DNA of 64,000 nt from Thermofilaceae archaeon (GTDB lineage: Archaea; Thermoproteota; Thermoprotei; Thermofilales; Thermofilaceae), in NCBI GenBank assembly GCA_038731975.1, contig JAVYQJ010000001.1:62001-126000 (forward strand), written 5' to 3'. The notes below the pieces were generated by a model. The model was not told where the DNA came from. It saw only the letters and a program-made list of their open reading frames with translations, and made no database searches. The first letter of the stretch is position 1. Every line of letters begins with the position of its first letter. This document shows positions 57,548-62,089 of the stretch, piece after piece. A program made the position numbers and the translations under genes.

Positions 57548-58603
57548 ATGCTTGAAAACCTAATTAATCTGAAAGATTATAGAATGAGATTCGTTTCAAG
57601 CACCCATAAATTGACTGAGGAGGAAAGGAAGTTCTTGCTCCCGAGAATCCCACTAGATTGGTTAGACCATTGGAAAAGGAAGGGGGTGCTGAAGAGTGTC
57701 GAATCTGAGTCCCGCTTGGATTATTACAGTATCGAGCCTGGCCAGAAGTTGACGATGTTCACCAGCGATGAACCGGGGATCATAGCTAGCATTTGGATAA
57801 CAGTGAGCGCATCCGATCGGAGGTTTCTCAGACACACGATTCTGAGGGCGTACTGGGACGGCGAGCCTGTACCGAGCGTTGAGGCGCCCATTGGAGACTT
57901 CTTCCTTCAGGGCCACCGGGCGTTTAGCCCCAAGCCCAGTCTAGCCTCGAGCGCCTACTCCGCGCTAGTCGGCCTCAGTAGCGGCGGCCTATTCTGCTTC
58001 TTTCCGATGCCTTTCAGCAGGGCCCGTGTAGAGGTTGAAAACCTAGGCAACGAAGAGATCCAATCCTTCTATTTCATCATCGGTTACTACGTTGGAGTAG
58101 ATACGAGCAATCGACCGCGCTTCCACGCGCTTTGGAGAAGGGAAAAGGAGGTTAAGGCTGGCGAACCATACTGCGTGTTAAAGGGTAGAGGGAGGGGGCA
58201 CTACGTTGGAACGTACCTTTACATGAGGAGCTTGAGCTTGAAACCCCCGATAATCGGTGGTCTAGGCTACCTCGAGGGAAATATTGCGATAATCGCTGAT
58301 GGGGAACCCAGCTACGTTTCAACGGGTACTGAGGACTACTTCCTTTCAGGCTGGTACTTTTCCGGTGGGCCTTTTACAGCCCCCTTCCACGGGCTGATCC
58401 ACAAGGACGAGGAGAAGGGCGAAATAGCAGCCTACAGGTTTCACGTGCTGGACCCCATTCCATTCAGGGAAAGCATAGAGGTTTACGCGCCCCACGGTGA
58501 GTTCAACGAGGTTGAAGCTGACTACAGCAGCGTTGCGTACTGGTACCAGCTGGAACCTCACGATGGCAGCCTTTACGGGATCAGGAGGGAGGACCTCTCC
58601 TAA
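57548..58603 (+). CDS. DUF2961 / GH172-like glycoside hydrolase
   Basis: 351 residues without a signal peptide. DEPGIIASIWITVS, LRAYWDGEPVPSVEAPIGDFF, MPFSRARVEVENLG, STGTEDYFLSGWYFSGG, AYRFHVLDPIPFRESIEVY match the DUF2961 double jelly-roll family, reclassified as GH172 (fructo- and arabinofuranosidases). The STGTED segment carries a probable catalytic Glu. The protein is likely cytoplasmic; substrate unknown. It starts 21 bases after the hypothetical gene behind Alba. Confidence 0.78.
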   Translation: MLENLINLKDYRMRFVSSTHKLTEEERKFLLPRIPLDWLDHWKRKGVLKSVESESRLDYYSIEPGQKLTMFTSDEPGIIASIWITVSASDRRFLRHTILRAYWDGEPVPSVEAPIGDFFLQGHRAFSPKPSLASSAYSALVGLSSGGLFCFFPMPFSRARVEVENLGNEEIQSFYFIIGYYVGVDTSNRPRFHALWRREKEVKAGEPYCVLKGRGRGHYVGTYLYMRSLSLKPPIIGGLGYLEGNIAIIADGEPSYVSTGTEDYFLSGWYFSGGPFTAPFHGLIHKDEEKGEIAAYRFHVLDPIPFRESIEVYAPHGEFNEVEADYSSVAYWYQLEPHDGSLYGIRREDLS

Positions 58604-60859: not shown

Positions 60860-61063
60860 GTGACGGAGGAGATAGAGCCCGAAAAGAGGCTAGCGGTGCT
60901 AGCAGCCTGCGTGATGCTGCTAAGCTTGAAGCGCAATAAAGCTAGGGTTAACGCAGCGGCTCGCGGGGAGAGGATCTCAAGCTGGGTTATTGCAGCCAGG
61001 TTGGACGCTCCTTCGGAGATTTGGTGCACGCTCGAAAGGGGTCGACATGAGAAGGAAGTTTAG
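60860..61063 (+). CDS. Small OadG/MmdD-like subunit
   Basis: 67 residues from a GTG 3 bases after the carboxyltransferase stop. A hydrophobic helix (KRLAVLAACVMLLSLKR) is followed by a basic linker and SSWVIAARLDA, reminiscent of the conserved Trp-x-x-x-x-Arg-Leu end of the small delta/gamma subunits of biotin-dependent decarboxylases. It overlaps the biotin carrier gene by 17 bases. The identification rests on position and this short pattern. Confidence 0.6.
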   Translation: MTEEIEPEKRLAVLAACVMLLSLKRNKARVNAAARGERISSWVIAARLDAPSEIWCTLERGRHEKEV

Positions 61064-61412
61064 AGTGGTTTTAGACGGGGAGCTCTACGAGGTTGAAGTA
61101 GAGCTCGCCGAACCGGGTGATATTGAGGCTCTGCTCCAGGCTTTCCAGACTGGCGTTGTAAAGCGCGTTACTACGGAGATCCCCGCGGCAAAGATGGTCG
61201 AGGGGGGAGTACCCGCGCCAATAACGGGGCGTGTGGTCGAGGTTAGAGTGAAGCCTGGTGATGAGGTTAAACAGGGGACCCTAATAGCTGTGATGGAAGC
61301 GATGAAGACCAGAGTGGAGGTTAGAGCCGGCAGGAGCGGCATCGTTAAGGACGTGCTAGTCAAGGAGGGAGCGACCGTTAAACAGGGTGAGCCGCTTGTC
61401 GTAATCTTATAG
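61047..61412 (+). CDS. Biotin carboxyl carrier protein
   Basis: 121 residues from the ATG at 61047. A biotinyl domain occupies about 52-121, with VPAPITGRVVEVRVKPGDEVKQG and the biotinylation site EAMKTRVEV (Lys in AMK). The usual Met after Lys is Thr, a tolerated variant. The N-terminal FRVVLDGELYEVEVE segment is common in carriers of methylmalonyl-CoA decarboxylase and pyruvate carboxylase-like systems. It ends the carboxyltransferase cluster. Confidence 0.92.
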   Translation: MRRKFRVVLDGELYEVEVELAEPGDIEALLQAFQTGVVKRVTTEIPAAKMVEGGVPAPITGRVVEVRVKPGDEVKQGTLIAVMEAMKTRVEVRAGRSGIVKDVLVKEGATVKQGEPLVVIL

Positions 61413-61454
61413 CTACCGCGCCGGGCGCACATCCTCCTTCTTCATAGTTTTCCT

Positions 61455-61778
61455 CGAGGGACCGGCTCTTCGGCCCTCCGGCTTCTAGCCGTGGATGGCC
61501 GGCGGGCGTCATGGGGTCGGCCGCCACCGCTCGTCGACAGCCTTAGGTGGCCTACACCCTCTCCTCTCAGTGTCCCGTTGCCGGAGCGCGGCCCGGAGGG
61601 GGATTCCCAGCCCGGTTGGCCCAGACCGGGCTGGGGAGTGGATCCTCCATCAAGCGCGCGGGAGGGGGGTGCACAGTTCTAGACCGGCTGAAGGGAGGCT
61701 GGCTGAAGGCCTACATAGCCGCAGCTCTCGAGCGAGCCCGGAGAACGGAGCGCCTTATCCCCTTCGTTCTACTTTTTT
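61455..61778 (+). ncRNA. Candidate structured RNA of about 320 nt, unassigned (SRP-like rod shape)
   Basis: This 389-base gap is very GC-rich and codes for nothing convincing. Nested pairings are visible: CTCCGG 476-481 with CCGGAG 738-743 (add 61000 throughout); GTGG 491-494 with CCAC 524-527 and GGCCG 497-501 with CGGCC 518-522; CGCTCG 528-533 with CGAGCG 729-734; about ten pairs between 555-564 and 661-671 with one bulge; GCGCG 586-590 with CGCGC 655-659; GGAGG 595-599 with CCTCC 644-648; and an 11-bp hairpin 606-616/625-635. A T-run at 61773-61778 could terminate it on the plus strand. The rod shape with a hairpin near the ends recalls archaeal SRP RNA, but the SRP54-binding motif is not seen, nor are RNase P RNA core motifs. 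Boundaries are estimates. Confidence 0.55.
61773..61778 (+). terminator. T-run after the structured RNA candidate
   Basis: A run of six T residues follows the last paired segment of the GC-rich region and fits an archaeal terminator for a plus-strand transcript. The convergent EF-1 beta gene ends at 61802. Confidence 0.45.
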
Positions 61779-61801
61779 GCTTAACTCCAAACCGTAAGGT
61801 G

Positions 61802-62080
61802 TTATTCGAGAAGCCTGGAGACGGTAATCACGTCGAACTGGCTGATCTCTGGCATGTTGGACAGCCTGCTCTCCAGATCGTACGTGCCCCCCTCAAGATT
61901 CTCAGGCATGGCGATCCACAGGTATATCGCGGTGATGCCGAAAGCTATGGGCTCAGTCCTACTCCTAAGGACCTCGTACGTGTCCTGGGGGAGGCGACTC
62001 CTGACGAGCTCTACGATTTGCTCTGGAGGTGCTTCAGCGTCTGCCGGTAGAACCCTCACAACAGCCACTACGCGGGCCAT
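61802..62080 (-). CDS. ef1b: Elongation factor 1-beta (guanine nucleotide exchange factor)
   Basis: 92 residues from the ATG at 62080 (M-ARVVAVVRVLPADAEAP), with GGTGA as a Shine-Dalgarno-like element just upstream; a GTG three codons earlier is less likely. TEPIAFGITAIYLWIAMPENLEGG and the ISQFDVITVSRL ending match archaeal aEF1B, which recycles EF-1 alpha from GDP to GTP form. It follows its usual zinc-finger partner by 9 bases. Confidence 0.9.
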   Translation of the reverse strand: MARVVAVVRVLPADAEAPPEQIVELVRSRLPQDTYEVLRSRTEPIAFGITAIYLWIAMPENLEGGTYDLESRLSNMPEISQFDVITVSRLLE

Positions 62081-62089
62081 ACTAGTCAC

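Follow-up and report, generated by a model that had tools for sequence, protein, structure and literature searches.

A GC-rich spacer between two convergent genes of a Thermofilaceae archaeon is probably the decayed remnant of a mobile element of the TnpB-encoding kind

We analyzed a 64,000-nucleotide stretch of DNA from a Thermofilaceae archaeon (the window) and focused on a GC-rich spacer within it, at positions 61413 to 61801. This spacer is most likely a decayed, nonautonomous derivative of a TnpB-encoding mobile element that is of the IS200/IS605-superfamily type and apparently TnpB-only. We base this assignment on the existence of dispersed copies, on right ends of such copies that lie 3' of TnpB genes, on a boundary common to the copies, on a covariance model match in the window, and on the short spacers found at the same junction in congeners. 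By analogy with characterized systems, we infer that the right ends of related elements give rise to an RNA that serves as a guide. The assignment strikes out what had looked like an unassigned structured RNA; a decayed omega-RNA locus without tnpB can mimic a lone GC-rich RNA gene.

The spacer separates two convergent genes. On the plus strand, at 61047 to 61412 (stop at 61412), lies a gene with orthologues in congeners, which we take to encode the biotin carboxyl carrier protein (BCCP) from its biotinyl motif EAMK and the neighboring carboxyltransferase. On the minus strand, at 61802 to 62089 (stop at 61802), lies the gene for archaeal elongation factor 1-beta (aEF-1beta), which matched NCBIfam NF001670 at 70.2 bits (cutoff, 67). 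The same convergent genes occur in three congeneric genomes, RSNS8 (L108), KUA_Bin21 (L109), and SKYB99 (L110), where spacers of 4, 8, and 18 nt separate them. Since the spacer measures 389 nt here, about 378 bp are inserted between the BCCP and aEF-1beta genes. Taking the element as 61416 to 61793 leaves 11 nt of host spacer, which falls inside the range of the relatives, and all three congeners present the empty site of an insertion polymorphism. The sequence-only reading had described the spacer as GC rich and noncoding, with a perfect 11-bp hairpin and a T-run, and these observations held. G+C reaches 66 to 73% over approximately 61450 to 61750, exceeding nearly all surrounding 100-nt windows, and none of the tested open reading frames (ORFs) inside 61413 to 61801 matched Pfam; protein-coding ORFs in the region were ruled out for want of a family match. 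The hairpin pairs 61606 to 61616 with 61625 to 61635 around an 8-nt loop, and the T-run is found at about 61773 to 61778.

A DNA search with the stretch returned seven further partial matches in the archaeon's own genome (G000) and six in G014, a Thermofilales genome of the same family and a different genus; 39 other relatives gave no match. The stretch is a dispersed repeat. Its right boundary is sharp: the copies have the end ..GGCGCGG in common, and their flanks are unrelated. The whole inserted element (about 378 bp) is read on the minus strand, from a left end at 61793, a boundary that we give tentatively, to the right end at 61416. The terminal part of the right end is an omega-RNA (reRNA)-like sequence in degenerate form, at 61416 to 61586 of the minus strand. 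The 5' part of the right end, at 61587 to 61675 on the same strand, is defined by alignment with three G014 copies; in the TnpB-bearing copies of that genome, its counterpart shares sequence with the open frame encoding the TnpB C terminus. In the G014 copies, the place of the perfect hairpin (61606 to 61635 in the window) is taken by a related, shorter sequence. The left-end remnant, at 61680 to 61793 of the minus strand, matches the own-genome copies C8, C1:190k, C1:136k, C23, C26, and C7. It includes, on the plus strand at 61688 to 61732, 15 codons of the C terminus of a small ORF named ORF1; they read 'LKGGWLKAYIAAALE', and the C8 copy (L017) reads 'LRGGLLKAYIAAALE' followed by a stop. Through this C terminus, the left end, which is common to the own-genome copies, is also related more weakly to the left ends in G014. 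In the C8 copy, about 506 bases with an ORF within separate the two matched parts, compared to a gap of 111 bases in the window copy. IS200/IS605-type elements usually lack terminal inverted repeats, and none were found in the window element. The tetranucleotides before the left end, where a target motif (TAM) would be expected, include TTAC, TCAC, TCGC, and CCGC, among others, at a left boundary that is itself uncertain.

The link to TnpB comes from the copies in G014 and in the congener G001. Long ORFs on the matching strand of G014 are followed immediately, on their 3' side, by the GC-rich part and have left-end sequence on their 5' side. Right ends with a common CCCCATGAC core likewise lie 3' of TnpB ORFs in G001. 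Against PF07282 (Cas12f1-like TNB domain, TnpB zinc-ribbon), the best of the ORFs scored 38.6 bits and the others 18 to 32 (cutoff, 26.3). A profile of the ORFs searched against the PDB matched a TnpB-like protein (E value of 8.4e-5), and the predicted structure (pLDDT 72) matched Cas12 and Fanzor structures, AsCas12f being the best (E value of 7.5e-9). As judged from these profile and model comparisons, the predicted product of the G014 ORFs is a divergent TnpB/Cas12f-like protein. On the minus strand, the window copy therefore consists of a left end (61793 to 61680) followed by a right end (about 61675 to 61416), and no tnpB intervenes; the right end is common to it and to TnpB-encoding copies. 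In the G014 and G001 copies, this end is placed at the 3' end of tnpB and runs to the boundary; the window copy has the boundary and the homology only. No match to a TnpA transposase, either Y1 (PF01797) or serine (PF00239), was obtained in G000, G001, or G014; TnpB-only elements are known. A search of the open-access literature found no paper naming both 'Thermofilum' and 'TnpB', and the present data add a divergent TnpB family and its right ends for Thermofilales. In the RuvC-II motif of the G014 family, 'IAVDxPDPESL', the proteins encoded at L078:2526-4205, L079:2073-3641, L081:2263-3825, L082:3396-4901, and L085:1895-3463 have Asp at the position that aligns with Glu in the PDB relatives. 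Near the start of contig C3 of G014 (L079:1899-3765), the right end and a 20-nt flank occur twice, inverted, around a TnpB copy, which is an inverted duplication or an assembly artifact.

We built a covariance model, R1 (144 positions), from ten G014 right ends only, leaving out the window and the other own-genome copies. R1 matched the window at 61416 to 61586 on the minus strand with all of its positions aligned (1 to 144 of 144), at 61.2 bits and an E value of 1.3e-8, a rough figure because calibration was short. The match stops at the boundary common to the copies. Across 41 genomes, under strict filters, R1 matched at six sites in the own genome and at 21 in G014, and in no other genome; the more distant right ends of G001 are beyond its reach under these filters. 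A second match in the window, at 57912 to 58022 on the minus strand (17.9 bits; E value of 0.2), is probably due to chance.

The right ends of the other copies have a recurring predicted fold: two hairpins, the second of them before CCCCATGA, are followed by a long rod, then by a further, small hairpin, and finally by a tail that runs to GGCGCGG. Fold z-scores range from -0.9 to -3.4 for these copies, and the minus strand of the window copy scored -1.14. Among the copies, 93% of cells pair, compared to 39 to 53% when slid; only three pairs changed on both sides, a number within that of shuffles, and hairpins of unequal length align poorly. The window copy kept 20 of 26 counted consensus pairs, compared to 26 to 30 of 29 to 30 in the TnpB-linked G014 copies. 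We give little weight to an arm-swap energy test, as its arms were hand-picked. The right-end sequence matched no Rfam family.

The arrangement resembles that of ISDra2, in which the 3' end of tnpB together with the right end yields the omega-RNA, and the guide comes from flanking DNA. The right end of ISDra2 encodes RNA, adjoins the 3' end of tnpB, and terminates with the element (PMC8612924, PMC10097598). The putative RNA-encoding right end of the relatives is placed in the same way, and their protein is predicted to adopt the Cas12f/TnpB fold. Unlike ISDra2, the window copy has no tnpB, and the three genomes searched yielded no TnpA; the TnpB family is also divergent, with Asp at the RuvC-II position noted above, and its right ends fall in no Rfam family. 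Omega-RNAs associated with IS200/IS605 elements have been seen as RNAs in haloarchaea and other archaea (PMC12558985). They share with our elements an archaeal host and a noncoding RNA position adjoining tnpB, whereas the window copy is a relic known here from its sequence. The short, ORF-free copies spread through the genome, both ends of which are as in protein-coding elements, also recall MITE-like nonautonomous IS derivatives (PMC10969869); in contrast to those, the window element showed no terminal inverted repeats. On the ISDra2 analogy, the right end of the relatives would be cotranscribed with the tnpB 3' end, the resulting RNA would form a scaffold to which TnpB binds, and the guide would be taken from the DNA just beyond the boundary. 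The minus-strand right end in the window is the counterpart of this putative omega-RNA locus. On this reading, the element entered the junction of the convergent BCCP and aEF-1beta genes and has lost its protein gene, and its right end is now joined to its left end with no ORF between them.

The sequence-only reading had instead favored an RNA gene, either a strongly diverged and possibly permuted signal recognition particle (SRP) RNA or another RNA; we weighed this as a plus-strand RNA gene and included RNase P RNA among its possible identities. High G+C and one strong hairpin speak for such a gene, and archaeal SRP RNA (RF01857) and RNase P RNA (RF00373) are likewise GC rich and of comparable length. 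However, searches with both covariance models, which that reading had proposed as a check, gave no match in the region and placed the two genes on contig C23 of the own genome: the SRP RNA at G000:C23:7134-7449 (100.6 bits; cutoff, 96.5) and the RNase P RNA at G000:C23:6638-6954 (149.6 bits; cutoff, 84). Both identities fail because these RNAs sit elsewhere, which was part of what the reading itself had named as evidence against it. At gathering scores, Rfam found only tRNAs in the 64-kb window, and the best subthreshold matches in 61413 to 61801 were far under their cutoffs. One of these tRNAs, at 446 to 561 on the plus strand (53.2 bits), is absent from the ARAGORN output; its length of 116 nt suggests an intron. 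The nested long-range fold on which the proposal rested did not survive comparison with shuffled sequences: the plus strand of the whole region had a z-score of -0.22, with 40 of 100 shuffles at least as good, and the minus strand a z-score of 0.45, so we discarded this fold as a sign of an RNA. Moreover, the spacer is almost missing in congeners. Taken together, the probability of a stand-alone plus-strand RNA gene is negligible. The suggestion of another RNA was right insofar as the region is homologous to TnpB-element right ends, in the omega-RNA position, and wrong in that this locus lies on the minus strand and is a degenerate copy. Another possibility is that the minus-strand RNA is still made and acts in trans with a TnpB-like protein encoded elsewhere. 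A PF07282 search of the own genome gave no match, and a protein search found a single TnpB relative, with an open frame, at G000:C4:124010-125257 (L053), a candidate partner. This protein reads 'GVSVNNRTG' where its relatives read 'DVNS', with Ser at the RuvC-I aspartate, and we found no recognizable right end at its locus; as judged from its sequence, it is probably inactive, and we regard it as a dead or repurposed TnpB-like protein. In addition, the window copy has damaged helices and a fold score of only about -1.1. A trans-acting RNA is thus very improbable. The favored reading remains the TnpB-element relic. The window copy encodes no TnpB, for which reason we class it as a derivative and not as a full element; it carries no ORF and its stems are damaged, and it appears to be dead.

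The remaining alternative concerns the history of the element and leaves the verdict of a mobile-element relic unchanged. In some copies, the common ends enclose ORF1, on the strand opposite to tnpB. ORF1 encodes 186 amino acids from the chosen start in G014 (G014:C1:398125-398682; L006:1836-2393) and occupies a 117-amino-acid frame in the C8 copy (L017:2532-2885), the best copy of the own genome, which carries ORF1 and not TnpB; the two are 35% identical over about 113 residues. The element family could be centered on ORF1; its ends would then have passed to TnpB elements or come from them, and the GC-rich part would be a promoter, leader, or end recognition sequence for ORF1 and not for TnpB. 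Consistent with this, ORF1 lies between the common ends both in the C8 copy and at G014:C1:398k, and the window retains the ORF1 C-terminal peptide. Conversely, in another species, G001, where ORF1 has no match, TnpB ORFs are followed by right ends that contain this core, and the position and boundary of the right end suit an omega-RNA layout. We consider an ORF1-centered family unlikely and keep the TnpB-element relic as the preferred explanation. ORF1 itself matched neither Pfam nor NCBIfam; a PaREP-type repeat protein was considered and dropped, as no Pfam match appeared at E values of up to 1. Its structural model is poor (pLDDT 43), and nearly all of the best PDB matches were DNA sliding clamps (best E value of 6.5e-3), so that a sliding-clamp-like fold is a lead only. 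The same ends around a small, possibly clamp-like protein are an oddity of these elements. It is conceivable, and in our estimation quite unlikely, that Thermofilales elements kept TnpB-type ends and the omega-RNA locus while swapping tnpB for a clamp-like ORF1, and that the window holds a relic of such an element. If so, the ends, and perhaps the RNA, would work with a clamp in place of an RNA-guided nuclease. In several G014 copies (L030:1453-2142, L036, and L034), ORF1 is followed by a second repeated frame, 'MERLA.GEGRK.L..RLEEWVEKRGAELQELFGEYG'.
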